Shown: positions 2-13,283 of the stretch, piece after piece | Numbering within the stretch: position 1 is the first letter of the stretch | How the letters are laid out: each line of letters begins with the position of its first letter | IMG/VR virus record: IMGVR_UViG_3300009034_000211 | Location: 1-23,680 of that record | Reading direction: 5' to 3' (one strand) | Source: a virus | Length of the DNA stretch: 23,680 nt | Translations under genes and position numbers: made by a program | The notes under the pieces: generated by a model | Databases searched by the model: none | What the model was told of the DNA's origin: nothing | What the model saw: only the letters and a program-made list of their open reading frames with translations

Positions 2-1777
2 CTCCCAACCCGCGCGGTAGAGAAACAAGCCGATCCGTACATGGAGATCCCGGACGAAGACAAGGCGCCTTATGCCTATTCTGTGCAGCATCATTTTCGC
101 GGAAAATCTATGCATTCGGATCTCCGCATTGTACTGCGACCGAAGCGTCTGCTAATCGGCTGGACGTTGCTCACCGGCATCAAGGGAGAGATCAAAGAAC
201 CCGTCACCAAGCTATCGCAGGCTCGGGCGCTGAGCCGAACGCGCATGGATGAGATTTCCAAGATCAACTGGAACACCGGAGAGTGGGCGAAGAGGCGCAA
301 GCGCGGTGTGAAAGAGCCAGTTCGCACTTCAATCAACTCGGTTCGGAAGGCAGCGGAGCCGTACGATTGGCTCAATGTCGAAGGTGCCACTAAGATGCCT
401 GAGGAGGGCAAGCCGCCACCCGTGGGAGGGACGCGAGAGTTCCCTGGCGTGTTCCAGATCGTGGACCAGGGCGAGGCTGAATACTTGGCTCAAAAAGTTT
501 GGCTCCACGAGTATGCAATGGTCGGCAAGGCGCTCAACTACCGGATCTTCTTCCGCCAGCTTCGGTTGAAGAAAGACGGCACTCCAGACGATGAGGATCT
601 ACCTGAAAACCTGAAAGGCGAGGTGCTGAGTAAAGCGGTACTCCCACCTTCAGAGGAGTCTGAGTTGCCTGGACCTGTTTGGCTGTGTATCCGTCCAGAC
701 GATCAGACTCCCTATGTGCTCGACCGCGACGCCGTAAAAAAAGGTTGGATGCCTCCGGTGGGAATCTCAGCGCTGCCAAAGGCTATCCGCAAGCAGGTGC
801 CGGTCGAGTACCGCTACTGGAAAAGCAAGACAGCTGCCAAGGCCAAGCAGACTCGTGACGCGCTGCAACTGGCGATCAAGGCGAAAGACGTGGAGATCGA
901 CTACACCGCGCCGTACAAGCGGCGAACCACGAAGGCCAGCATGCTCGACGCACGATTCGTGCTTCAAGAGCAGACCTGGCGAGGTCCGATCCAGATCCGC
1001 GTCGGTCCGTCCCGAACGCTCTGGCACCTACGGCTGGATGTTGGTCGACCGGAACTGATCGTCGTTGAGATGTACTTGAACCCGCTGGACAACAAGCGGC
1101 TCGCGGCGGACGTGAAGGACGATCCGCACAAGGAGAGCATGAAATTCGAGGGCGAGATCAAGCCGAGTCACTATCTGAACCCGACGAAGGCCACGCCTTC
1201 AAACATCGAGATCCTGGATTCCGGAAAAGCCTCGGTCCTGTCCTACAGCGACAAGTTTCTGAAGGTGCAGATCAAGGGCGAGCTACTGAAAGGCTTGTAC
1301 GAGGCTAAGCGCTCGGACGGCGACTGGTTGTGGCAGCCTTCTGTCCCGGGTCCGGAGGTGAAGAAGGAGGCTGGAGAAATGGCAGAGGTATTCAAAGCGG
1401 CGTTCGTCAACGAGACCGTGATCGCGAAGGTGGACAAGGAAAAGCGAATCGTCACCGGCATAGTCCTAGAACCGGACGAGGTGGACGCGCAGGGCGATAC
1501 AATCGATGCTGAGGCCATCGAGCGCGCAGCACACAAGTTTCTGGCGAGCTACAACCGCGAGACTCAGCTCGGGGTGCTGCACACGATGTTCGGAGAGATA
1601 GGCGTGGAGTTGGTCGAGTCCTGGATAGCAAAAACGAGTTTCAAACTCGGCGATCAGAAGGTGACAAAGGGTACGTGGCTCATGTCGAACAAGATTAACG
1701 ACGACACGCTATGGAAGAAGGTGAAGAAGGGGGAAATCACCGGATTTTCTATTCAGGGAGTGGCAACCGTAATATGA
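2..1777 (+). CDS. XkdF-type prohead protease with two N-terminal LigD phosphoesterase-like modules (5' partial)
   Basis: The C-terminal part (about residues 447-578, counting from the ATG at 41) reads as an XkdF-like serine protease of phage proheads. It has the segment VDAQGDTIDAEAIERAAH, a candidate catalytic His514 in VLHTMF, Ser527 in VESWIA, and the closing GFSIQG. Such proteases process scaffold and capsid during head maturation. Upstream are two modules resembling the 3'-phosphoesterase domain of bacterial LigD. Module 1 (about 12-175) has VQHHFRGKSMHSDLRI, keeping the H-x-D-x-R metal signature (H25, D27, R29). Module 2 (about 304-432) keeps the later part of the fold (FEGEIKPSHY, IEILDSGKA, KGELLKGLY, DWLW) but has lost the HxDxR residues. 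The frame is open to the left edge and the ATG at 41 has no Shine-Dalgarno, so the true start probably lies outside the window. The protease call is solid; the phosphoesterase relationship is my reading of motifs. Confidence 0.82.
   Translation, partial: LPTRAVEKQADPYMEIPDEDKAPYAYSVQHHFRGKSMHSDLRIVLRPKRLLIGWTLLTGIKGEIKEPVTKLSQARALSRTRMDEISKINWNTGEWAKRRKRGVKEPVRTSINSVRKAAEPYDWLNVEGATKMPEEGKPPPVGGTREFPGVFQIVDQGEAEYLAQKVWLHEYAMVGKALNYRIFFRQLRLKKDGTPDDEDLPENLKGEVLSKAVLPPSEESELPGPVWLCIRPDDQTPYVLDRDAVKKGWMPPVGISALPKAIRKQVPVEYRYWKSKTAAKAKQTRDALQLAIKAKDVEIDYTAPYKRRTTKASMLDARFVLQEQTWRGPIQIRVGPSRTLWHLRLDVGRPELIVVEMYLNPLDNKRLAADVKDDPHKESMKFEGEIKPSHYLNPTKATPSNIEILDSGKASVLSYSDKFLKVQIKGELLKGLYEAKRSDGDWLWQPSVPGPEVKKEAGEMAEVFKAAFVNETVIAKVDKEKRIVTGIVLEPDEVDAQGDTIDAEAIERAAHKFLASYNRETQLGVLHTMFGEIGVELVESWIAKTSFKLGDQKVTKGTWLMSNKINDDTLWKKVKKGEITGFSIQGVATVI
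1364..1381 (+). promoter_or_regulatory. Strong internal ribosome binding site for a stand-alone protease product
   Basis: AAGGAGG (1364-1370) lies 8 bases before an in-frame ATG at 1379, which is residue 447 of the fusion. Translation from here gives a 132-residue protein starting MAEVFKAAFV, which is where XkdF-type proteases normally begin. This is a better start signal than anything at position 41. The protease may therefore be made both fused to the phosphoesterase-like part and alone. The signal is visible; its use is inferred. Confidence 0.5.
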
Positions 1778-2004
1778 ACAAAAATAAATCTCTTGACAGC
1801 AAGAACAACAGTTTGTCACAATTGAGGCATGAGAACGGAAAGACCCAATGCAATCTTCTAGGTTTGTACTTTGAGAGCCTGAAGCAGCGTGGTTTTTTCG
1901 GTCAGGTTACTTTGAAATTTGAAGCAGGCAAAGTCGTCTACGTCAACGAGAGTCGCGGTTGGACGCGGCTAGAAGAGCTGGGGAGCGAGTTAGGCAACAA
2001 GTAG
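1774..2004 (+). CDS. Small YezD/DUF2292-like protein of unknown function
   Basis: A 76-residue protein. The ATG at 1774 overlaps the TGA of the protease gene (ATGA), suggesting translational coupling; a longer reading from 1711 is possible but would overlap the protease gene by 67 bases. The core, LKQRGFFGQVTLKFEAGKVV followed by YVNES, resembles the small YezD/DUF2292 family, whose members have a short helix followed by a GxVTxxxxxGKV beta-hairpin. No function is established for that family. The start of the gene is AT-rich compared with its neighbours. An intrinsic terminator follows 36 bases after the stop, so the gene closes a transcription unit inside the head operon, as a late-acquired cargo (moron) gene might. 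Family assignment is tentative. Confidence 0.55.
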   Translation: MNKNKSLDSKNNSLSQLRHENGKTQCNLLGLYFESLKQRGFFGQVTLKFEAGKVVYVNESRGWTRLEELGSELGNK

Positions 2005-2039
2005 ACGACTCAAAAAAACGAGGTATCGGAGAAAACCGG

Positions 2040-2071
2040 ACCCCGGATGGCATAAGCCGTCCGGGGTTTTT
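2040..2071 (+). terminator. Intrinsic (Rho-independent) terminator
   Basis: The arm CCCCGGATGGC (2041-2051) and the arm GCCGTCCGGGG (2056-2066) pair over 11 positions with one G-T wobble around the loop ATAA, followed by TTTTT. It sits between the YezD-like gene and the scaffold-like gene. Because it lies inside an otherwise continuous late operon, it probably acts as an attenuator, or is overridden by antitermination. Confidence 0.85.
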
Positions 2072-2095
2072 GCGTTCCAAAGGGGAGTTAGTCGG

Positions 2096-3283
2096 ATGGG
2101 CGAGACGGAAAACGATAAGGACAACCCACGCAGGATTCTCGACGTAGACGTTCGGGAGGTATCGCTGGTAGATCGCGCAGCGAACCTCCGTAAATTTCTG
2201 ATCATCAAACGACTCAAGGAGGAAGAAATGGGCGCATTTCAAGCGGAAGTGGACGCACTGCTGAAGAACGAGGATGGCGGAGACTTCAAGCCTATCTTCG
2301 AGGGCATCGCCGAAGTCGAAAAGGCACTGCCCGAAACCGAGGGCGATCCAGGATCGTTCTGGGAGTCGGACAACGAGGAGATCACAAAAGCGCTACCAGC
2401 CGATCTGGCCAAGGCGATCCGCGATGTATCGGCGTGGATGAAGCGCCTTTCGCGCATGAAGGGCGCGCCCGGTCCGGCCATCGCGCGGGTTCTGACTTTC
2501 CTGGGCAAGGTGGTCGGAGGAAAATACCCGTACCCGAAGCCGGTTGGCAAGGCCGAGGACATCCCGACGGAAGAGGAGGCGAAGAAGGCGCTGACCGAGG
2601 AGTTGGAGAAGGCGATCAAGAGCGTCGCGGAGTTCATGGCCAAGGCCGCCAACGGCAAGCTTCCGATCCCGGAAGCGGAAAAGGACGAGGTCGCGAAGGC
2701 CGTGCCCGCAGATCTCGCGTCGGCGATCAAGCGCGTCGTGTCCTTCCTGAACAAAGTCGTGGGCGGTCAATATCCGTACCCGAAGCCGGGCGCTGCCGGT
2801 GGCGCTGGCGGGTATCCAGCGCCTGCCAAGAAGTCTGACGATGTGGCTGATCCGGGCGCGGATGCGGAGATCCCCGCGGTACAAGTCATGGATGATGGGA
2901 GCGTGATCGTCAAGGGCCAGGCCGTGAGCAAGGGGAAGAAGTTCACCGCTTCAAGAATCGGCGCGATCAAGGACACGGCTCTGCAGATGATCAAGCTGCT
3001 GGGCGAAGTCGGAGACGAGGATACCAGAAAGGCGCTCGGTGATGCGCTGAAGGCGCTCACGGGTGCGGCAGAGCCCGCAGCCCAAGGGGTCCAGGCCGTT
3101 GGTGCCCAGAAGTCGGAGCTGGAACCCGAAGTCGAGGAGCTGCGCAAGCAGCTCGCCGATGTGACCAAGCAACTAGAAGAAGTGGTGAAGGAGCGGAAGG
3201 CTGGATCAGGTATCGAAGACGGCACCGCAGCCGCACGAGTTGAGAAGAAGGAGGAGGATGGGTTCTGGGGCGGCGTGATCTGA
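2096..3283 (+). CDS. Scaffold-like prohead protein with internal repeats
   Basis: A 395-residue, very charged protein between the protease and the major capsid gene, the usual place for a scaffold. The start at 2096 has AAGGGGAG (2079-2086) ahead of it. Residues 14-38 contain VREVSLVDRAANLRKFLIIK, a motif I associate with phage prohead proteins. Residues 98-235 hold repeated amphipathic units beginning with KALPADLAKAI or KAVPADLASAI; the motif VVGG-K/Q-YPYPKP occurs at 139-149 and 221-231. A coiled-coil-like heptad stretch runs from about 340 to 368, and the C-terminus is DGFWGGVI. The long helical, repeat-rich make-up suits a scaffold that is removed by the protease. I infer the scaffold role from position and composition, not from a clear family match. 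A second in-frame start exists at 2228. Confidence 0.65.
   Translation: MGETENDKDNPRRILDVDVREVSLVDRAANLRKFLIIKRLKEEEMGAFQAEVDALLKNEDGGDFKPIFEGIAEVEKALPETEGDPGSFWESDNEEITKALPADLAKAIRDVSAWMKRLSRMKGAPGPAIARVLTFLGKVVGGKYPYPKPVGKAEDIPTEEEAKKALTEELEKAIKSVAEFMAKAANGKLPIPEAEKDEVAKAVPADLASAIKRVVSFLNKVVGGQYPYPKPGAAGGAGGYPAPAKKSDDVADPGADAEIPAVQVMDDGSVIVKGQAVSKGKKFTASRIGAIKDTALQMIKLLGEVGDEDTRKALGDALKALTGAAEPAAQGVQAVGAQKSELEPEVEELRKQLADVTKQLEEVVKERKAGSGIEDGTAAARVEKKEEDGFWGGVI
2217..2230 (+). promoter_or_regulatory. Internal ribosome binding site and in-frame start in the scaffold-like gene
   Basis: AGGAGG (2217-2222) stands 5 bases before the ATG at 2228, residue 45 of the scaffold-like protein. A product starting MGAFQAEVDALLKNEDGG would lack the VSLVDRAAN segment. 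Nested in-frame products are common in head-assembly genes (lambda C/Nu3, for example). The site is clear but its use is inferred; the purine-rich stretch could also simply encode KEEE. Confidence 0.4.
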
Positions 3284-3346
3284 AAGACTCATCTGGCCTC
3301 GTAGCACAGGATAACAAACTTTCTCTAAGAATAGGAGGAGGAGACC

Positions 3347-4540
3347 ATGGGCGGTATTTCAAACGAAGAACTGTTGCGCAAGGCAGCGATCCTGCTGGAC
3401 ACCCTTGCAACGTCTGGGAAGCTGAACCCCAAGCAGGCCGACCGATTCATCGACTACGTGGTGGACGAGACGATCCTGAAGAACAACGCGAGAATCGAGC
3501 GCTTCCGGAACGAAGCACTGGACATCGACAAGATCGGAGTCGGCGCACGCGTCATGGTCCCGTTCACGGAAGCGACGGATCCGGGCGTAAGGATCGGCGT
3601 CACGACTTCCAAGGTCACTCTGACCCCCAAGGCGGTTATGGTGCCCTTCGAGATCGGCGATCTCTTCAAGGAGCGGAGCATCGAGGAGAATGTGGCGGAC
3701 CATGTGGTGAAAATGATGGCCAAGGCCTTCGCCAACAACTGGGAGGAACTCTACATCAACGGCGATACCAACGGACACGCCATCCTCGAAAGCAACTACC
3801 CAGGCGGCGCAGACGCCACCAGGTACCGCAAAGACTCGCTCATGGCGCTGTTCGACGGCTGGTTCCGTCTGGCCGACGGCGGGAACTCGTTCGACGCGCA
3901 GGGAGCCAACATAGGCATTTCCGTATTCGGCGGAATGGTCCGAAAGATGCCGACGAAGTTCCGGCGCAACAAACGAGATCTCCGGTTTTTCATCTCGCCC
4001 GATCTGGCCAGCCTCTACTACGAGAAGCTGGCGTCGCGGTCGACCGCGCTCGGCGATGCAACGGCCGGCGGCGCACCGCACGCACCCCTAGGCATCCCGC
4101 TGGTGGAAGTCCCGCTGCTGGACCTCCTGCCGCCGGTAGTCGAGCACGTGGTCCTGACCGGTACCGCTGCCACGGCCCTGCGCTACGGCCCGATTAGCAG
4201 CGTGGTCGTGACGACTTCGACGCTGGGCGCGACTCCGGAAGACGCATATACCGAGGACACCGACTACGTGGTGGACTACACCGCAGGTACGATCGCACGA
4301 GCAGGCGGAAGCACTATCGGATCCGGTGCGACCGTGAAGGTCACGTACAAGGCGAACCCGCAGATCGTGCTAACACACTATATGAACTACATTTCTGCAA
4401 TAAATACAAGCATTTCCATAGAACGTGACCGCCGAATTTTCGCCCGTCTTGACCAATACGCCATTCATGCGTCGGTTGCCTGCGAGTTCGAGGAGGACAC
4501 CGCGCTGGTCAAGGGGATCAACATCGGCAGCAGCATCTAG
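3347..4540 (+). CDS. Major capsid protein (HK97 fold) with a beta-rich insertion
   Basis: A 397-residue protein that forms the icosahedral shell. It follows the protease and scaffold-like genes and has a very strong Shine-Dalgarno (AGGAGGAGG, 3333-3341), as expected for the most abundant virion protein. The N-terminus resembles the helix of HK97-type capsids (LLRKAAILLDTLATSGKLNP), followed by an E-loop-like region with VMVPFTEATDPG and a spine-helix-like segment (VADHVVKMMAKAFANNWEEL). The C-terminal strands (IVLTHYMNYISAINTSIS, and RRIFARLDQYAIHASVAC) fit the P and A domains. Residues about 265-342 form a Thr/Val/Gly-rich beta domain (including YTEDTDYVVDYTAGTI and GATVKVTYKANPQ) that looks like an Ig-like decoration insert. 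Identification rests on context and overall pattern; I see no clash with it. Confidence 0.85.
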   Translation: MGGISNEELLRKAAILLDTLATSGKLNPKQADRFIDYVVDETILKNNARIERFRNEALDIDKIGVGARVMVPFTEATDPGVRIGVTTSKVTLTPKAVMVPFEIGDLFKERSIEENVADHVVKMMAKAFANNWEELYINGDTNGHAILESNYPGGADATRYRKDSLMALFDGWFRLADGGNSFDAQGANIGISVFGGMVRKMPTKFRRNKRDLRFFISPDLASLYYEKLASRSTALGDATAGGAPHAPLGIPLVEVPLLDLLPPVVEHVVLTGTAATALRYGPISSVVVTTSTLGATPEDAYTEDTDYVVDYTAGTIARAGGSTIGSGATVKVTYKANPQIVLTHYMNYISAINTSISIERDRRIFARLDQYAIHASVACEFEEDTALVKGINIGSSI

Positions 4541-4609
4541 TAGGTAGTAGCTACCGGATGCTTTTGAAAATCTGAAACGCTATCGATTGGAAACAGGAGG
4601 TTTCTCAAG

Positions 4610-4876
4610 ATGGCACGAGTGAGAGCAGAGTTAAAAGAAGGTTCGTCGTACTCCTTTCGCAACGGACCATCGTTCGTGAGGGGCACACCCCAGACCTTGA
4701 CCGATCCCGAGCTGATCAAGCTGGTGCGCAACTGTGGGTTCTTCACCATGACGGATCTTGAAGCGGAGGAGGCGGCGCGGAAAGCGGAGATTGAATCCGC
4801 CTCTGCCAAGGCTGCGGAAACGAAGCCGGAGTCGGTGAACAAGGGCGGTAGACCAAGAAGGAAGGCCAAGCCGTAG
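4610..4876 (+). CDS. Small head-region protein of unknown function
   Basis: An 88-residue protein starting MARVRAELKEG, with AGGAGG (4595-4600) ahead of the ATG. The first half looks like a small beta domain (YSFRNGPSFVRGTPQTLTD, then ELIKLVRNCGFFTM). The second half is an Ala/Glu-rich helix (LEAEEAARKAEIESASAKAA), and the end is strongly basic (KGGRPRRKAKP). Small proteins of this type often follow capsid genes in PBSX/Mu-like modules and can be head or head-tail accessory proteins, but I recognise no family with confidence. The 69-base gap before it (4541-4609) holds only a weak hairpin (CATC/GGTAG paired with CTACC/GATG, 4534-4560) that is not a convincing terminator. Confidence 0.75.
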   Translation: MARVRAELKEGSSYSFRNGPSFVRGTPQTLTDPELIKLVRNCGFFTMTDLEAEEAARKAEIESASAKAAETKPESVNKGGRPRRKAKP

Positions 4877-4887
4877 AGGTGAGCGAA

Positions 4888-5241
4888 ATGGGCGAAGTTC
4901 TCGTACAACTGAAAGAGACTTCCTTCCCTCAACAGGTGGATGGTTTCCCTGCGGGCGCGAAGCGTTCCGTGAAGGGCGCTCTGCACTTCCGGCCTGGTTC
5001 CGCGACATGGATTACCGACGACGAGTTCCGCTTTATTCTTGACCAGCGTCCGGACACGGCCAGAAACCTCCGAGTACTCAGCAAGAAGCTGGCGGACGTT
5101 CCCACATCAAAGTCCGAGCCCGAACCAGCCGCACCTCCGGATTTATCCGAGGATCCGGAGCCCAAGGCAGTCGAACCAACACCGGAAGAGGCGAGACCGC
5201 GTTCTCGGCGTCGGCGCAGCAACCGCGAGAAGGAAGACTGA
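4888..5241 (+). CDS. Small head/neck-region protein with acidic-proline linker and basic tail
   Basis: A 117-residue protein. I prefer the ATG at 4888 because AGAGGTG (4875-4881) lies 6 bases upstream; a GTG at 4879 in the same frame would add three residues but would fall on the Shine-Dalgarno itself. Residues 1-65 look like a compact domain (VLVQLKETSFPQQVDGFPAG, then WITDDEFRFILDQRPDTARN). After that comes a low-complexity Pro/Glu/Ser stretch, ending in an Arg-rich tail (RPRSRRRRSNREKED) that could bind nucleic acid or capsid charge. No family is recognised. It sits in a run of four small genes between the capsid and the connector, so a head-completion role is plausible but unproven. Confidence 0.7.
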   Translation: MGEVLVQLKETSFPQQVDGFPAGAKRSVKGALHFRPGSATWITDDEFRFILDQRPDTARNLRVLSKKLADVPTSKSEPEPAAPPDLSEDPEPKAVEPTPEEARPRSRRRRSNREKED

Positions 5242-5285
5242 CTCTCGCTCTGACAGCCTGAAGCACGGGCTGGAGGTCTTCGGAG

Positions 5286-5645
5286 GTGCTCCGGGTTCAC
5301 AGCGCTGACGGACGAACGGTGGAGATCGATCTTGAGGACGAGGAGCAAGCGCGTTCATGGTTGGAGAGGTTGAAAGACCCGGCATTTCGGGAGGCCATCA
5401 CGGGCCTGACCGTTTCTCACAACGGCATAACGTACTCGCTTCCGCGTCCAGGGGATTTTCGTCAGGTGGTCTTGACGGCCGAGCCAGTCGTCAACAATGG
5501 GCGCAGGAACAAGGGCGGAGAAAGGCTGCTGTGCTTCGCGGACGACGTGCGGCTGTCGGTAATGGTCCACCGGGAGCAGATCGCAAACGTGCGTATCGCA
5601 CTCTCAAAGCCGGGACGACGCAGATTCGATCCGGAACAGAGGTGA
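5286..5645 (+). CDS. Conserved-looking protein of unknown function (119 residues)
   Basis: Starts with GTG at 5286, supported by GGAGGT (5272-5277) 8 bases upstream. The protein begins MLRVHSADGRTVEIDLEDE, has an amphipathic helix (EQARSWLERLKDPAFREAI), then HNGITYSLPRPGDFRQVVL and a C-terminal part with GGERLLCFADDVRLSVMVH, finishing basic (KPGRRRFDPEQR). The mix of strands and one helix suggests a folded domain, but I do not recognise the family. It is separated from the next gene by 4 bases and shares its direction and tight spacing with the other head/neck genes. Confidence 0.65.
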   Translation: MLRVHSADGRTVEIDLEDEEQARSWLERLKDPAFREAITGLTVSHNGITYSLPRPGDFRQVVLTAEPVVNNGRRNKGGERLLCFADDVRLSVMVHREQIANVRIALSKPGRRRFDPEQR

Positions 5646-5649
5646 GGCA

Positions 5650-6045
5650 GTGAACGACGAAACCGAAAAAGCTCAGGTCGGAACGGTGGTAATGGTCGAG
5701 AAGGCTGACCTACCTCTACGAAATCAGGAATCGATCGGCGAGTTCAACGAGAAGATGGACCGCGCTCTGACAGAGCACTTCAAGGGGTTGGAACTTCCGA
5801 AGAAGCCTCGGCATCTCTGGATCAACGAAGTCTACGCCGATAGAATCGTGGCCTGCATAAACTGGTTCACGAAAGAGGATGAGCTGCACGATCCGAGCAC
5901 GCACTACCAGCTTTCGTACACGCGAGGTGCGAACGGAGTGTTCACCTTCGGCGGCGCGACGGAGGTCGAGCGAAAGACATCATGGACCAAGAGAGCCGAG
6001 TTGCGGAAGCGGCTGGCCGACGACTTTTGGAAGGGGGCCGTCTGA
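5650..6045 (+). CDS. Small head/neck protein of unknown function
   Basis: A 131-residue protein starting with GTG at 5650, preceded by AGAGGTGAGG across the stop of the upstream gene. The centre reads WINEVYADRIVACINWF, then STHYQLSYTRGANGVFTFGG and EVERKTSWTKRAELR. The pattern of a hydrophobic Y-x-L/V-x-Y strand followed by a Gly-rich turn and FTFGGATEV resembles short beta segments I associate with phage prohead-protease and head proteins, but the match is too short to name a family. Its TGA at 6043-6045 directly abuts the TTG start of the connector gene, implying coupled translation. Confidence 0.65.
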   Translation: MNDETEKAQVGTVVMVEKADLPLRNQESIGEFNEKMDRALTEHFKGLELPKKPRHLWINEVYADRIVACINWFTKEDELHDPSTHYQLSYTRGANGVFTFGGATEVERKTSWTKRAELRKRLADDFWKGAV

Positions 6046-7146
6046 TTGGGCGCCTACGTAACAGTGCAGGACGTTCGCGACGAGGGCTTGACGGATATCA
6101 CGAAGTATCCGGACAAGAAGGTCGTGGACTACATCCGAACCTGGCAGGAATTGCTGGACAGAGCATGTCGGCAGTGGTTTGAGTCACGAACGCTCACTCT
6201 CCTGCTCGATGGCAACGATTCTGATACCCTCTTCTTCGGCGTGCCGATCATCTCGGTAGAGCATCTGAAACTGAACGGCTCTACCGCCGCGCTTGACGCC
6301 AGCCTGTACAAGGTCTACTCCGAAAAGTCCTACCCAGACAATCGTAGGAATCCCAAGATCTCGCTGGTTAGCCCTGATGCTGTGCGAGACATCTATACAG
6401 CTCCACTCACTTACGGACGTCTGAAGTTTCATCTCGGCCGAAAGAACCAGGAAGTGAAAGGCGCGTTCGGTTACGTGGAAGACGGTATCCCGGCGCATGG
6501 TGCCGTTCAGTTCGTTACGAAGGCGGAACTAGTCGATGGCGAGACCTTCGTGCTCCCCGACGGCACGAATCCGGCAGTCACGTTCTATTTCGATGTCTCT
6601 GGATCTTACGTACCGCCTAGCGGATACGATGCAACGAACGTGCGCGTGGATGTGTCTGGCGATACCACGGCGGACGAAGTCGCGGCCACGGCTAAGACCG
6701 CGATCAACGGGGCCGCTGCGCTGGACATCACGGCGGGCACCATCGAGACCGGCGGGCTTCTTCGCTTGGAGAACGACGCGGGCGGCACCACCGGGAACCA
6801 GGCGATCACGGAGACAGTAGCCGATACTGGATTCGCTGCTTATGGAATGGTCGGTGGTGGCGTTCCGTACGCAATCGTACGCGCCCTGATCAAACTGGTT
6901 ATCGAGAAGCTGACGAGCCCGATGTATGGTGGCGGTGCTGTAACGCCATCCCCGTCGGCGCTGGGTGCAATCTTGAGCGAAAAAACTGACGGACATGAAA
7001 TCCGCTATCAGCCGGCTGGCGGCGGGTTCGGAGAGCGCAAGCCGGGGCTGAGCGGCATCACGAGCGATCCGGAGATTTTGGACATCATTACTCTATATCG
7101 TGCGCCACTCGGGGTGGCGTCGCCAGTCGCATGGTCGTACACATGA
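6046..7146 (+). CDS. Head-tail connector (adaptor) protein with a large inserted domain
   Basis: A 366-residue protein starting with TTG at 6046, with AAGGGGG (6031-6037) upstream; the N-terminus (MGAYVTVQDVRDEGLTDIT) immediately begins a helical adaptor-like domain, which supports this start. Helices containing VVDYIRTWQELLDRACRQWF, then strands with TLLLDGNDSDTLFFG, fit the gp6-like adaptors that join the portal to the neck. Residues about 158-271 are a Thr/Gly/Val-rich module that separates VKGAFGYVEDGIP from VPYAIVRALIKLVIEKL, two segments that would normally be contiguous, so it appears inserted in a surface loop. A closely related module occurs in the J-like baseplate protein. The stop overlaps the start of the GIY-YIG gene. 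The adaptor role is inferred from position and the helix pattern. Confidence 0.7.
   Translation: MGAYVTVQDVRDEGLTDITKYPDKKVVDYIRTWQELLDRACRQWFESRTLTLLLDGNDSDTLFFGVPIISVEHLKLNGSTAALDASLYKVYSEKSYPDNRRNPKISLVSPDAVRDIYTAPLTYGRLKFHLGRKNQEVKGAFGYVEDGIPAHGAVQFVTKAELVDGETFVLPDGTNPAVTFYFDVSGSYVPPSGYDATNVRVDVSGDTTADEVAATAKTAINGAAALDITAGTIETGGLLRLENDAGGTTGNQAITETVADTGFAAYGMVGGGVPYAIVRALIKLVIEKLTSPMYGGGAVTPSPSALGAILSEKTDGHEIRYQPAGGGFGERKPGLSGITSDPEILDIITLYRAPLGVASPVAWSYT
6517..6858 (+). repeat. Shared inserted domain, copy A (in the connector)
   Basis: Residues 158-271 of the connector. Over a 60-residue ungapped core starting GETFVLPDGTNPAV, I count 38 identities with copy B (21991-22320), about 63% by hand. 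The two copies share DGTNPAV, VDVSGDTT, TAING and end in GM-V/S-GG. Their hosts are otherwise unrelated, so this is a mobile or duplicated domain. Confidence 0.75.
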
Positions 7147-7994
7147 GCATGAGCAAATACATAGTTTACGGTCTGACCGATCCTCGTAGCGGATTGATCC
7201 GGTATATTGGTATGAGCACGACTGGACACGTACGCGCCCGTGCCCATTGGTACCGCAAGGGACAGGACCACAAAAGCTGCTGGATCCAAAACCTCCGCGA
7301 TGCTGGGTTGAAGTACGGGATTGAGGTTCTCGAAGAACATCTCAGTCCCTCAACACTTGGAGATGCCGAAAGGGCATGGATCGCCTATCTCAAAAAAGAG
7401 ATCGGTAACAAATTGACCAACGCAGTGGAGGGCGGGCAGATCGGGAGTCGAGGCTACAAGTGGACTAAGGAACAAAAGGCTAAGATCAAGGGAAGATTCA
7501 AGGGTACCAAATGGTCCAAGGAATCTTGTGAAAAACTTCGTGCATCGCAGATGGGTCATGAAGTCACTGCGGCCACACGCGAGAAGTTGCGCCAAGCCAA
7601 TCTGGGTAAAAAATACAGCGCGGAGACAAAGGCGAAGCTAAGCAAAATTCATCGTGGGCGTAAACACACGGATGCCACCAAAAGAAAAATCGGCGACGCT
7701 CATCGGGGCAAGATCGTAAGCCCCGAGACCATCGAAAAGCTGCGGCAATCCAATCTCGGTAGGAAACATTCAGAAGAAGCCCGGGCCAATATGGCTGCTG
7801 CTCACATGGGCCTGACTCACGAGACCTCCACCGAGACGCGGGAAAAAATCCGCAGAGCACATTTAGGAAAGAAGCACAGCGACGCGACGCGAAAGAAAAT
7901 GAGCCTGTCTCACAGAGGGAAACGGCACAGTGCGGAAAGCAAGACAAAAATTCGAGAAGGGCTTCTGCGTTACAATGCGAGGAGAAAGTCATGA
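7143..7994 (+). CDS. GIY-YIG homing endonuclease with NUMOD3 repeat array
   Basis: A 283-residue protein that would cut DNA at a recognised site and spread its own gene. Residues 5-80 are the GIY-YIG nuclease domain: YIVYGL (6-11) and IRYIG (19-23) supply the two signature strands, R31/R33 the arginine region and Glu76 in DAERAWI the metal-binding glutamate. Residues 100-283 are about nine NUMOD3-type DNA-binding repeats, each with a pattern like GKKHS-x-E/D-T-x-x-K-I/L-x-x-x-H-x-G. The start is taken at 7143 because ATGA overlaps the connector stop; ATGs at 7131 and 7149 are also possible. The end overlaps the next gene (ATGA at 7991), and its last codons carry that gene's GAGGAG ribosome binding site. 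It has no structural role and looks like a selfish insertion. Confidence 0.92.
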   Translation: MSMSKYIVYGLTDPRSGLIRYIGMSTTGHVRARAHWYRKGQDHKSCWIQNLRDAGLKYGIEVLEEHLSPSTLGDAERAWIAYLKKEIGNKLTNAVEGGQIGSRGYKWTKEQKAKIKGRFKGTKWSKESCEKLRASQMGHEVTAATREKLRQANLGKKYSAETKAKLSKIHRGRKHTDATKRKIGDAHRGKIVSPETIEKLRQSNLGRKHSEEARANMAAAHMGLTHETSTETREKIRRAHLGKKHSDATRKKMSLSHRGKRHSAESKTKIREGLLRYNARRKS

Positions 7995-8404
7995 CCCTGC
8001 CTCGCTTGCTACACCCCGTGGATGTGTACGTAGAAAAAATAGACAGGGCTGGTACGTACTACGACGAGGACGCTAGAGAGCCCGCGCAGGGCGCCGCCAG
8101 GAAAACCATCGTAGTCATACCCGGTCAGGTGAAATGGGGAACACAGTTGGGCTTGGAGCCGTCTAAGGGTGGACCGCGCGAGGGCGCAGTCGGTTACGTG
8201 CTGTTCCGGCGTGTTGATCTGGAAGCCGCTGGTGTGACATTACAGGATAACGATTGCTTCAAGCAGCTCGGCGATGTTGACTGCGATTTGTACGTTGATC
8301 GCTTGGAATTTAATTCACACTATCCCTCTGCGGGCGGACCGACTCTGGTCAAGGCCCACTTTTCGGACAGGCAGCCAGCGAAGCAAACGCGCGGGGTGGC
8401 TTGA
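7991..8404 (+). CDS. Probable neck/head-completion protein
   Basis: A 137-residue protein whose ATG overlaps the TGA of the homing endonuclease. GAGGAG (7979-7984), 6 bases upstream, lies within the end of the endonuclease frame. It starts MTLPRLLHPVDVYVEKIDRA and is rich in strands (KTIVVIPGQVKWGTQLG, VGYVLFRRVDLEAAG), ending DRQPAKQTRGVA. The opening LHPVDVYVEKID and the all-beta look are typical of small head-closure/neck proteins that lie after the adaptor in contractile-tail phages. I see no decisive motif, so the role comes mainly from gene order: adaptor, this gene, tail-completion protein, sheath. Confidence 0.6.
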   Translation: MTLPRLLHPVDVYVEKIDRAGTYYDEDAREPAQGAARKTIVVIPGQVKWGTQLGLEPSKGGPREGAVGYVLFRRVDLEAAGVTLQDNDCFKQLGDVDCDLYVDRLEFNSHYPSAGGPTLVKAHFSDRQPAKQTRGVA

Positions 8405-8405
8405 G

Positions 8406-9014
8406 ATGGCGCGCACTCGTTTCAAAAAGACTGGTAAGTGGAAGGAGTTCAAGAGGGCACTGGATCCACGGGTATTTCGTGCCACCTCACGCAAACACAT
8501 GCGTCGTGCCACGGGCATCAACGCGCTGCTGGCCGTGCGTGGCATCCGTCAAGCGATTACAAAAGGCGATGTCAAGCCGAACGCCGAGCTATCCGTGGCA
8601 ATCAAGGGCGCGGGTAAGAGACCGCTTGTCGACACCGGCGACATGAGGCAGGCAATCACGCACAAACTGATCGACGATTTCACAGCGTTCGTCGGTGTGC
8701 TCAAGATGGACAAGCTGTACAACATTGCGATGACAGTGCACGAACGGGTAGTCATCACAGTCACTAAGAAGATGCGTGCGATGTTCTACTATCTCTGGCT
8801 CAAACAGCACCGCCCGGATTTGAATCTTACTGGTCGCGCTGCCGAGTTGTGGGAGCGTTTCAAGGGTCCGTGGCGAAGGCTTGAGAAGCCAGCGATCATC
8901 AACCCGAAACGGCCGTTCATCGAGATCGCGTTTGACGATCCAGCGCTGCATAAGCAAGCGCAACGTAACTGGGAAGTGGCTATAGCAAAGACACTCCGGG
9001 AGTTGGCGAAATGA
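8406..9014 (+). CDS. Tail-completion / virion morphogenesis protein (gpS-like)
   Basis: A 202-residue protein. I take the ATG at 8406, one base after the upstream stop; the frame is open back to 8274, but that would overlap the upstream gene by more than 130 bases. The protein has a basic N-terminal helical part (KTGKWKEFKRALDPRV, then HMRRATGINALLAVRGIRQA), the segment KRPLVDTGDMRQAITHKL and, later, NPKRPFIEIAFDD. The 'PL-D-TG-x-x-x-x-SI ... RPFI' pattern is characteristic of phage virion morphogenesis proteins (P2 gpS, Mu gpG group) that complete the tail before joining. Its place before the sheath agrees with that. Confidence is moderate to good. Confidence 0.72.
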   Translation: MARTRFKKTGKWKEFKRALDPRVFRATSRKHMRRATGINALLAVRGIRQAITKGDVKPNAELSVAIKGAGKRPLVDTGDMRQAITHKLIDDFTAFVGVLKMDKLYNIAMTVHERVVITVTKKMRAMFYYLWLKQHRPDLNLTGRAAELWERFKGPWRRLEKPAIINPKRPFIEIAFDDPALHKQAQRNWEVAIAKTLRELAK

Positions 9015-10255
9015 GGTTGCTTAAGCTCATCAAGGAGTTCCGTTTCTCAGAGGACGTGAGGGCGAAGATCACGCTCGGGACAGACGTGCGCCTGAACCCG
9101 GACGAGCACTGGCTACAGTTGAAAGCTGGCTCCGATGGGTATCCGCTGACCTCGGATCTCTACGCGAAGACATGGGTTTCTAATCCGGAGAGCGTCAAGC
9201 AGTGGATCGGATTCGAGGCTGAAGTACTGCACACGAAAGTGAACACGGTGCAGGTCACTAGCGTCGGCTACCAGATATCTGACGGGACGACAGACCGGTA
9301 CTGGAGCGGGGCTGCGTGGGTCGCTGCCGGAGCTAGCGACTGGAACACGGAGGAGGAAGTCGCAGCCAATATCGGGACCTATCCGGTTACGGAACGCAAG
9401 TTGCAGGTGATCCTGAATCTGAAGACCACCGATAAAGTGGCTACGCCGAAGGTCCTGGCCATCAAGGTACTCTACGCTTCGGCGATCGAGTTCCAGGAGG
9501 ATATCATCTATCGCTCTCTGGTTCCAGCGCTGCGCGATGGTGTCCGACCGAGAGCGCGTGTGCCGTTCACCGCAGCCACCACAACGGATACCTTCGACCT
9601 CGACGATCTTGGAATCGAGACGCCGTACAATATCGTAGATGTGGACGCCGTGTTCAACGACACGGATGATCCGAACCACCTCACGGATCTGCTGGACACC
9701 TACACCCCGAGCACGAAGGTGATCACGCTCACATCCACCATCGCGCAGGGCAAGACCGTGTGGGTTGATTTCCTGTGGGAACCGGAAGTGGCGGTCACAA
9801 CCAGTCAGGACTATTCCGAGGTCGAGAAGGTTCCGGCAATCGTACTCGACGACATAAATCTGGTGGATGCTTCGGTTCGCGGTCAGAAGGAAAGTGTGGT
9901 CAATCGCAATGACGGCACAGCGGTAACTCTCCAGCGCCCACTTGTTGGAGATCTGGAAATTCTCATGCATCTATTGACAGATAAGGGCGTGGATCTCCAG
10001 CGGTTGGCGACGGAGGTAAAACGCTTCTTCGCAAACAACCCGCTCCTACGTTCGGTTGGCACGGACGAAGAGTACAGACTATGGGTGCTGGATGAATTCG
10101 ATATGACAACCGCCGCGAACCGTGGAGACATCCACACGGGCCGCCTTCGATTTAGCATCGTGGGCGTACGCTACTACCTACGGGACGCCGTGGACGGATA
10201 TGGGATCAAGAAGTTCCACCTAACTGGAGATATGGACGTTATTGTTCCACCGTAA
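9011..10255 (+). CDS. Composite neck/tail-terminator-region structural protein
   Basis: A 414-residue protein; its ATG overlaps the previous TGA (ATGA), with GGGAG 8 bases upstream. Residues about 95-165 look like a beta-sandwich (ISDGTTDRYWSGAAWV, then DWNTEEEVAANIGTYPV and LNLKTTDKVATPKVLAI). Residues about 190-260 are a second beta domain (ITLTSTIAQGKTVWVDFLW). Residues about 300-414 (GDLEILMHLLTDKGVDLQRL, VKRFFANNPLLRSVG, then VLDEFDMTTAANRG and a final run of strands) could be a tail-terminator-like domain; the position between the tail-completion protein and the sheath would suit that. It is longer than ordinary tail terminators because of the extra beta domains. No family is securely recognised. 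Confidence 0.6.
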   Translation: MRLLKLIKEFRFSEDVRAKITLGTDVRLNPDEHWLQLKAGSDGYPLTSDLYAKTWVSNPESVKQWIGFEAEVLHTKVNTVQVTSVGYQISDGTTDRYWSGAAWVAAGASDWNTEEEVAANIGTYPVTERKLQVILNLKTTDKVATPKVLAIKVLYASAIEFQEDIIYRSLVPALRDGVRPRARVPFTAATTTDTFDLDDLGIETPYNIVDVDAVFNDTDDPNHLTDLLDTYTPSTKVITLTSTIAQGKTVWVDFLWEPEVAVTTSQDYSEVEKVPAIVLDDINLVDASVRGQKESVVNRNDGTAVTLQRPLVGDLEILMHLLTDKGVDLQRLATEVKRFFANNPLLRSVGTDEEYRLWVLDEFDMTTAANRGDIHTGRLRFSIVGVRYYLRDAVDGYGIKKFHLTGDMDVIVPP

Positions 10256-12572: not shown

Positions 12573-13283
12573 ATGTCGATAAAGGGCAGTAAGCTTTCTG
12601 AAGCGACGAAATGCAAGATGTGTGAAGCGGCGCATCGCCGTCTGGCTACACCAGAGGGGCGTAAGCAACTTCGGCGTGCTGCTGCAAAGGCTTGGGAGAC
12701 TCGTCGCGGGCTAAAGGAATCTGATGAGCTTTGCGAAAAGCGCGCAACGATTGTTCAACGCCGGATGCAGAATCCCGAAGAGCGGAAGAAGATCTTAGCC
12801 TGTCTTGATATGGCATCTAGCAGGAGAGGTTGGCTCTCGGAAGAGCACAAGGCAAAAATTTCTAAGGCTCATAAGGGCAGACCCAAAAGCAGGGCGCACC
12901 GACAGAAACTCCGCGAGATAAGTCTTGGAAGAAAACAATCTGCCGAGACCCGTCGAAAGCGTTCCGAGACTCTGAAACGCATCGGCCATGGTAAGCACAA
13001 CAAAGGCCGCAAACGCTCCGAGGCGACCAAGCAGAAAATGCGAGCGGCCCAGAAGCGTCGTTTCGAGCGTCCGGGTGAGCGAGAGAAGCAAGCGGAGCGT
13101 AATCGTCGGCGATGGGCACGATTAGGCCATAAGCACCGACTCTACGACGCTGCTGCTGAGAAAGAGGGCTGGAGTGTGCTTCGAATTTGGGAGCATGAAT
13201 TAGCAGAGGGCGAAGCCGAACGCATCATTTTGACGCGGGCAAATACTTGCAAGAGACGTAATTCAAACCTTTCAATCTCATAG
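12573..13283 (+). CDS. NUMOD3-repeat homing-endonuclease-like protein with a Vsr-like C-terminus
   Basis: A 236-residue, very basic protein starting ATG at 12573, with TAGGAG formed by the sheath stop codon. It contains NUMOD3-type DNA-binding repeats: KLSEATKCKMCEAAHRR, WLSEEHKAKISKAHKGRPKS, RKQSAETRRKRSETLKRIG and KGRKRSEATKQKMRAAQKRR. Near the C-terminus, EKEGWSVLRIWEHELAEG strongly resembles the closing strand and helix of Vsr/EDxHD-type nucleases (GWxVLxxWExE). I cannot find the rest of that catalytic core (the acidic residue and the WHG/HD region), and the repeats run straight into the last segment. It may be a degenerate or minimal homing endonuclease. It lies between sheath and tail genes and has no evident structural role. 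Confidence 0.8.
   Translation: MSIKGSKLSEATKCKMCEAAHRRLATPEGRKQLRRAAAKAWETRRGLKESDELCEKRATIVQRRMQNPEERKKILACLDMASSRRGWLSEEHKAKISKAHKGRPKSRAHRQKLREISLGRKQSAETRRKRSETLKRIGHGKHNKGRKRSEATKQKMRAAQKRRFERPGEREKQAERNRRRWARLGHKHRLYDAAAEKEGWSVLRIWEHELAEGEAERIILTRANTCKRRNSNLSIS

Follow-up and report, generated by a model that had tools for sequence, protein, structure and literature searches.

The reading frame at the start of the window (the whole stretch of DNA analysed, 23,680 nucleotides of the virus record IMGVR_UViG_3300009034_000211, an uncultured tailed virus) encodes, with a probability that we put at about one half, the C-terminal half of a polyvalent-type protein in which a LigD-like end-healing and end-sealing cassette is combined with a head maturation protease. 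Within the window this gene comprises two modules related to the LigD 3'-phosphoesterase (PE1 and PE2), a conserved middle segment between them, and an XkdF protease domain in the same frame. The features on which the analysis is based are given below; residue numbers are counted from the ATG at position 41.

2..1777, plus strand: 3' portion of a gene whose frame continues past the 5' edge of the window (frame of 1298 residues in L002, L003, L011 and L012)
41..568, plus strand: PE1, LigD 3'-phosphoesterase-like, with conserved metal-ligand set (AlphaFold2, VIA, Foldseek, hhalign)
92..127, plus strand: H18 (92-94), H25 (113-115), D27 (119-121) and R29 (125-127)
356..370, plus strand: E106 (356-358) and W110 (368-370), at the places of LigD H84 and Y88 by hhalign alignment
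653..910, plus strand: conserved middle segment, flanked by PE1 and PE2 (PDDQTPYVL..AVKKGWMPP..SALPK..RYW)
944..1360, plus strand: PE2, with the LigD PE fold but no conserved metal ligands (VIA, hhalign)
1418..1771, plus strand: XkdF head maturation protease (PF14550), conserved His at 1580-1582 and Ser at 1748-1750
2096..3283, plus strand: next gene, with a VSLVDRAAN motif and no protease domain (phrog_3017, E 2.4e-7, residues 11-60)
3347..4540, plus strand: match to a 'virion structural protein' family (phrog_1623, E 1.2e-63)

Gene extent and domain order

The frame is continuously open from base 2 of the window to the stop ending at 1777, and in an 83-kb contig of the same virus (L002) it measures 1298 residues from stop to stop. 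Over 9369 bases, the window and the L011 stretch of the 83-kb contig share 99.98% identity. In L002 and L003 the frame runs about 700 codons upstream of the window edge, across a ligase and a DNA methyltransferase; the ligase is thus absent from the window because the window begins mid-gene. The ATG at 41, where the first-pass annotation had placed the start of the feature, is ruled out as gene start by the same continuation, although the residue numbering counted from it holds. L002, L003 and L006 have a metagenome number in common.

The domain order of the 1298-residue frame is C5 DNA methyltransferase, ATP-dependent DNA ligase, OB-like domain, PE1, middle segment, PE2 and XkdF. The methyltransferase (PF00145, E 6.6e-39) displays its PC and ENV motifs, and the ligase core is matched by PF01068 with an E-value of 2.7e-22. 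Upstream lies a 1066-residue frame with ASCH-like, 2H-like and nucleotidyltransferase-like domains, and in the relative L016 these three are found together with ligase, PEs and protease in a single frame of 1768 residues. The names ASCH and OB come from our own reading of the sequence rather than from a curated profile. Likeness of the nucleotidyltransferase to solved structures is weak (best E 0.0043; DNA polymerase beta 0.38-0.59; TdT about 1), so that it is assigned to superfamily level only.

Catalytic positions are well conserved across the relatives. In the ligase KxDG motif the Lys is found in 45 of 49 rows and the Asp and Gly in 47 of 49, with the Glu and Gly of a later motif in 48 and 49 of 49, respectively; the Asp residues of the nucleotidyltransferase are present in 40/41 and 38/41. 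Purifying selection acts on PE1, PE2, ligase and XkdF, as shown by computation: dN does not exceed about 0.15 of dS in any comparison of these domains with a defined dS. For the pair L025/L147, for example, dN is 0.104 against a dS of 2.15 in PE1 and 0.034 against 1.34 in PE2, while dS is saturated, yielding no ratio, between the window and L016 and between the XkdF domains of L023 and L031.

An assembly artefact was considered and discarded, since 24 contigs contain the XkdF fusion, some of them from the same or a close virus (L011 and L012 belong to the window's own virus; L014 and L015 are close to each other, as are L023 and L031). An Rfam scan of the window and tRNA scans of five loci gave no matches.

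Fold and conservation of the phosphoesterase modules

The first-pass annotation had proposed two LigD PE-like modules, and structural as well as profile comparisons bear this out. PE1 modelled alone with AlphaFold2 reached a mean pLDDT of 94.4 and the PE1-PE2 pair one of 86.6. In the VIA comparison with 3p43, PE1 gave a Z of 12.5 (rmsd 2.0, 110 aligned) and PE2 a Z of 15.3 (rmsd 2.0, 117 aligned); for both modules alike the top six rows are the same six LigD PE entries and the next rows fall to Z of about 4, which contradicts an unrelated fold for either of them. With PE1 as the sole query Foldseek returned two matches at E <= 0.001 (best 2.9e-4, a modest value) and with the pair six, LigD PE entries in every case; a BFVD structure search gave nothing at that threshold. 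Profile comparison by hhalign against 24 cellular LigD PE domains yielded a probability of 96.9 (E 1.4e-10) for PE1 and of 97.0 (E 1.2e-10) for PE2, and the two modules match each other with a probability of 95.5 (E 1.4e-8). The LigD PE fold of both modules is thus confirmed by computation.

The relationship becomes visible mainly through profiles. With a profile built from an alignment of 35 relatives across PE1, middle segment and PE2, 3p43 (E 2.6e-5) and 3p4h (E 7.7e-5) rank first in the PDB, while a single-sequence search with the window reaches 3p43 at a weak E of 0.33. TIGR02777 touches module 2 in the window at E 0.0059, with 16.4 bits against a cut-off of 144; in Pfam, XkdF is the only domain recognised in the window and PF13298 gives no match. 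The relative L007 also stays below the curated cut-offs, with 25.7 against 31.1 bits for PF13298 and 29.1 against 144 for TIGR02777. Single-sequence support being this weak, a plain database scan would miss the link to LigD.

Concerning the active site, residues H18, H25, D27 and R29 of PE1 are by alignment the equivalents of H42, H48, D50 and R52 of Pseudomonas aeruginosa LigD. According to PMC8656161, H42, H48 and D50 of that enzyme bind manganese, R52, H84 and Y88 bind a phosphate mimic, and mutants in H84 or Y88 lose activity. Conservation in PE1 was counted over 60 rows, of which 35 are the window plus 34 of 50 candidate regions (near-copies, very long and several divergent regions being left out; L033 and L039 are identical) and 25 are further rows. 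H25 and D27 are present in 60/60, H18 in 59/60 and R29 in 58/60; the residues H25, D27 and R29 named in the first-pass annotation are therefore as given there and, far from varying freely, are constrained.

The two remaining positions behave differently. At the Y88 place a Trp is found in all 60 rows, and at the H84 place a Glu in 43, followed by Gln (7), Lys (3), Ile (3), Gly (1), Ala (1), a single His (L158) and one gap. The first 35 rows contain 31 Glu and no His there, the further 25 rows 12 Glu, 6 Gln, 3 Ile and one each of Ala, Lys, His and gap, while His and Tyr are invariant at the two places in the 24 cellular LigD PE domains aligned. From its residues, PE1 reads as having an altered active site, in which the metal site is kept, every member of the set has Trp for the Tyr, and the residue at the His place differs between members, most often being Glu. 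With both equivalents replaced, PE1 is better regarded as a divergent relative than as a standard catalytic PE, and it may be inactive or may carry out another chemistry.

PE2 has lost the metal ligands and keeps R320, N380 and W431 in 33-34 of 35 rows. The earlier view that each module is degenerate where the other is strong thus holds for the ligands of PE2 but not for PE1, whose second half is recognisable too (VEG...IVDQG...GKALNYR). In the middle segment, D221, P224, Y225, V226, W260 and R272 are invariant in 35/35.

Protease domain and head-gene neighbourhood

The fusion to a head protease, likewise claimed in the first-pass annotation, is confirmed by PF14550 in the window frame, with an E of 1.5e-32 and a score of 112.7 bits, the cut-off being 24. 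Its conserved His and Ser, which we take to be the catalytic pair of the protease, are each present in 43 of 43 aligned XkdF domains. A 'DNA methyltransferase' label carried by XkdF genes of isolate phages and by phrog_1530 was rejected: in one Pseudomonas phage the gene has about 154 residues, 124 of them covered by the XkdF match, so that the label there looks like annotation spill-over.

The surroundings are those of a head-gene region. In the 83-kb contig the fusion gene has upstream of it genes for a terminase large subunit (phrog_38, E 1.8e-75), for a portal protein (phrog_12, E 1e-32) and for a minor head protein that looks MuF-like by eye (phrog_115, E 2.3e-8). Downstream in the window, the product of 2096..3283 is a probable scaffold, with a weak phrog_3017 match to the N-terminal part of a family of head maturation proteases, and the product of 3347..4540 is, from its position, the probable major capsid protein. 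Between the fusion gene and the next, at about 2038-2071, a strong hairpin followed by a T run (MFE -28.1, z -3.7) would suit a bacterial terminator.

In each of the six fused contigs of 62-92 kb that were searched (G001, G002, G003, G004, G010 and G017) PF14550 occurs once, inside the fusion. With one copy per contig, and the contigs possibly being incomplete, the fused XkdF is probably the head protease itself.

Linkage of the cassette to a head protease among relatives

The search for the same fusion in other viruses covered 64 loci, 63 of which have PE-cassette domains (L009, with XkdF and no PE cassette, was excluded); some of the 63 are incomplete, for instance L061, which consists of middle segment and XkdF only. 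XkdF shares a frame with PE domains or middle segment in 24 of the 63 viral records, and is encoded by the following gene in 19. Among the former, L028 was counted as fused on weak XkdF matches that overlap PE2, its tail resembling by eye the other protease group. In the XkdF-fused frames, XkdF sits after PE2 or after the middle segment.

Of the 20 loci that show no XkdF match, four stop at a contig edge (L017, L035, L049 and L060) and 15 have a protease-like region either fused or in the next gene, partly judged by eye. It is in the same frame by alignment in L026, L047, L056, L058 and L064, and by eye only in L052. The next gene carries it in L021 (phrog_133) and, by alignment, in L027, L033, L037 and L043, to which L039, L040, L042 and L054 are added by eye from their likeness to L033 or L037. 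Nine protease-like regions aligned against XkdF with hhalign give a probability of 93.8 (E 1.7e-7), with one His and one Ser invariant, and PHROGs named as head maturation protease match three of ten such regions, L021 and, weakly, L027 and L043. For ANMV-1 no head protease was seen either in the cassette frame or in the gene that follows, and PF14550 is absent from the record.

On a tree with 19 fused rows, 13 next-gene rows and 3 in no group, the fused state requires five changes, at least three of them by well supported branches, so fusion or fission has been repeated. The cassette parts are separate genes in L041, L051 and L057, and fusion is therefore not required. Concerning the other domains, the ligase shares one frame with PE1 or the middle segment in 45 of the 64 loci, three (two of them from the window's own virus) also have the C5 DNA methyltransferase on the chain, and a 2H-like domain is found in two (in L006 with 34.2 bits for PF13563 against a cut-off of 27). 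These relatives show that the end-processing modules proposed in the first-pass annotation, whose LigD homology stands, do not stand alone in the fusion: they form the C-terminal part of a ligase and end-healing cassette.

Distribution and hosts

Among 50,697 phage records the cassette is present in one, ANMV-1, while related XkdF domains are found in 570. A scan of a genome collection of 84,980 species with two short patterns, taken from the ligase and the middle segment respectively, did not reveal the PE-PE arrangement, all 76 of the 76 confirmed matches being to the ligase part (query residues 3-182), and a plasmid search for the cassette found none. In 115 genomes of the phylum of the L103 genome (Methanomicrobia) there was one match, with an E of 1e-4 and covering part of the model. 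TBP genes are present in ANMV-1 and in the L043 contig (2 of 18), and some members of the cassette-bearing group are therefore probably archaeal viruses.

Comparison with known systems

Both modules share the fold of the LigD PE superfamily (3N9B of P. aeruginosa; archaeal 3P43 and 3P4H), and PE1 retains all three Mn ligands as well as the equivalent of R52. The viral modules differ from it in being tandem and in falling under the curated cut-offs, PE2 in lacking the ligands, and PE1 in having Trp for the Tyr and mostly Glu for the His of the 24 cellular domains, with an additional residue separating the first His from the second in the hhalign alignment.

The bacterial and archaeal LigD of non-homologous end joining (NHEJ) likewise has an ATP-dependent ligase and a PE in one chain, and many viral members place a polymerase-beta-like nucleotidyltransferase (weak PDB likeness) before the ligase. 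The viral order is in contrast LIG-PE-PE followed by the head protease, scanning five full-length proteins with Pfam and NCBIfam did not reveal an AEP-type POL, and Ku was found in 0 of the 18 viral records searched, which may be fragments. Mycobacteriophages Omega and Corndog, as described in PMC7719229, depend on phage Ku together with host LigD for successful infection, hence LigD-type end joining can matter to a phage. The common point is phage use of this type of joining; Omega and Corndog bring Ku and the host gives LigD, whereas here the virus encodes ligase and PE.

A similar architecture is that of the polyvalent proteins, in which, according to Iyer et al. 2017 (PMC5512222), an assemblin-like peptidase, when present, is C-terminal. 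As they are described there, these proteins share with the present one the large multidomain chain, N-terminal nucleic-acid enzymes, a C-terminal head-type protease and the head-gene context. The terms 'DNA ligase' and 'LigD' are absent from the main text of that paper, which does not describe the ligase/LigD combination. What is new is thus, relative to that main text, not the C-terminal head-type protease of a polyvalent protein, which was known, but the LigD-like ligase/PE cassette with its tandem, partly altered PE. In one prophage, according to PMC5567305, a LigD-like ligase and a prohead protease are encoded far apart by different genes. Searches of the open-access literature brought up no recognisable fusion of LigD-PE/ligase to a head protease.

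XkdF itself (Peptidase_S78_2) has the same profile, the same His/Ser pair and the same place before the capsid gene as in other phages. In three isolate regions, by contrast, the protease has a gene to itself, which measures about 154 to 542 residues.

Functional interpretation

If the window segment is the C-terminal half of a polyvalent-type protein, the chain would enter the prohead together with the protease, which would then cut it and release the enzymes. Part of the enzyme could stay with the packaged DNA and enter the next cell, where PE1 would clean the 3' ends of the incoming DNA, PE2 would assist DNA binding, the ligase would seal nicks or ends and the methyltransferase would protect the incoming DNA. 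The arrangement suggests, rather than shows, that such viruses carry DNA repair tools in their particles. A more specific form of the proposal, which we hold tentatively and consider rather unlikely, is Ku-independent end joining by a machinery delivered in the virion: a nucleotidyltransferase-ligase-PE-PE set carried by the protease would, with an altered PE site, clean, join or circularise the genome ends on arrival.

The cassette could also act in the infected cell, in repair during replication or before packaging, the fusion then serving co-production and self-cleavage freeing the enzymes in the cytoplasm. This is possible, if on the doubtful side. The location in the head-gene region fits a role at the time of packaging, and both the separate neighbouring genes of L041, L051 and L057 and the ANMV-1 cassette, with no visible head protease, are in line with it; what such a role leaves unexplained is that proteases of more than one subtype are repeatedly found right behind PE2, in the same chain or in the next gene, and that the contig's only XkdF is the fused one. 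A role on RNA, in tRNA or mRNA repair or in anti-defence, would have the ligase, the polymerase-beta-type nucleotidyltransferase, the 2H phosphoesterase and the PE rebuild cleaved ends. LigD PE also takes off 3' ribonucleotides (PMC8656161) and a 2H-like domain does occur in the two loci mentioned, but the families that the ligase domain matches are those of DNA ligases (PF01068, TIGR00574 and phrog_114), a C5 DNA methyltransferase is part of the same chain in three loci, and polyvalent 2H versions are, according to PMC5512222, never seen with RNA ligases, all of which makes an RNA substrate improbable.

It was further suggested in the first-pass annotation that the fold had been recruited as a structural part, that is, that the PE modules belong to a protease-scaffold core and have no enzymatic role. 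The lost ligands of PE2, the absence of the Y88 equivalent from all PE1 rows and that of the H84 equivalent from all but one agree with such a role. The invariance of H25 and D27 and the retention of the ligase motifs oppose it, as do the accessory domains, which differ widely between members, unlike a scaffold. Since catalytic residues are conserved in ligase, nucleotidyltransferase, PE1 and protease and dN/dS is low, a purely structural function is very unlikely.

Returning to the polyvalent-type protein with its LigD-like cassette and head maturation protease, this reading, if true, would mean that a group of mostly uncultured viruses (63 records) makes its head protease fused to, or beside, a DNA ligase and LigD-type domains. 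It would also add to the PE superfamily a subfamily with an altered active site. Whether virion-borne DNA repair readies the genome on entry would then become a directly testable question.

Features around the fusion gene and in related loci

Window 1793-1822, directly past the fusion gene: promoter-like TTGACA-18-CACAAT (10/12 matches)
Window 2038-2071: GC-rich hairpin with a T run (MFE -28.1 kcal/mol, z -3.7)
Window 7131-7994, among tail genes: frame with NUMOD3 motifs (PF07460, E 1.3e-18)
Window 12573-13283, among tail genes: frame resembling the preceding one by eye
Locus L048, frame 1794-7130: intein-like insertion in the first phosphoesterase-like module (PE1)
Locus L059, frame 5187-10151: intein-like insertion between the ligase and the OB-like region, ending HN
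Locus L063, frame 3143-6130: intein-like insertion in PE1, ending HN
L208 (Pseudomonas phage vB_PpuM-Amme-3), record 3003-3467: short XkdF protease gene annotated 'DNA methyltransferase'

The hairpin, which is absent from the pattern scanner's list, sits between the fusion gene and the following head gene. Two promoter-like sites were observed in the region scanned vs 0.9 expected. The NUMOD3 motifs among the tail genes are of the kind found in homing endonucleases. Among the relatives, the three insertions span ca. 290-350 residues and, with Hint-like sequence recognized by eye, look like inteins. L005 and L017, which are the same contig, carry a very long N-terminal region that precedes the ASCH-like domain and has no match in Pfam.

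Protease and probable scaffold

The 'DNA methyltransferase' label is also found on XkdF genes in other phage records and on phrog_1530, and is probably a misannotation. Concerning the gene that follows XkdF, a VSLVDRAAN-type motif is present at its start in the window (2096-3283, the probable scaffold), in L016, L018, L025, L030 and L147, and in L009, where XkdF occurs without the phosphoesterase cassette. This motif matches the beginning of PHROG 3017, immediately before the protease part of that family. Since the post-XkdF gene opens with the motif that precedes the protease there, the usual protease-scaffold gene seems, judging from these sequences, to be split, with the protease residing on the enzyme chain and the VSLVDRAAN-type motif on the scaffold.
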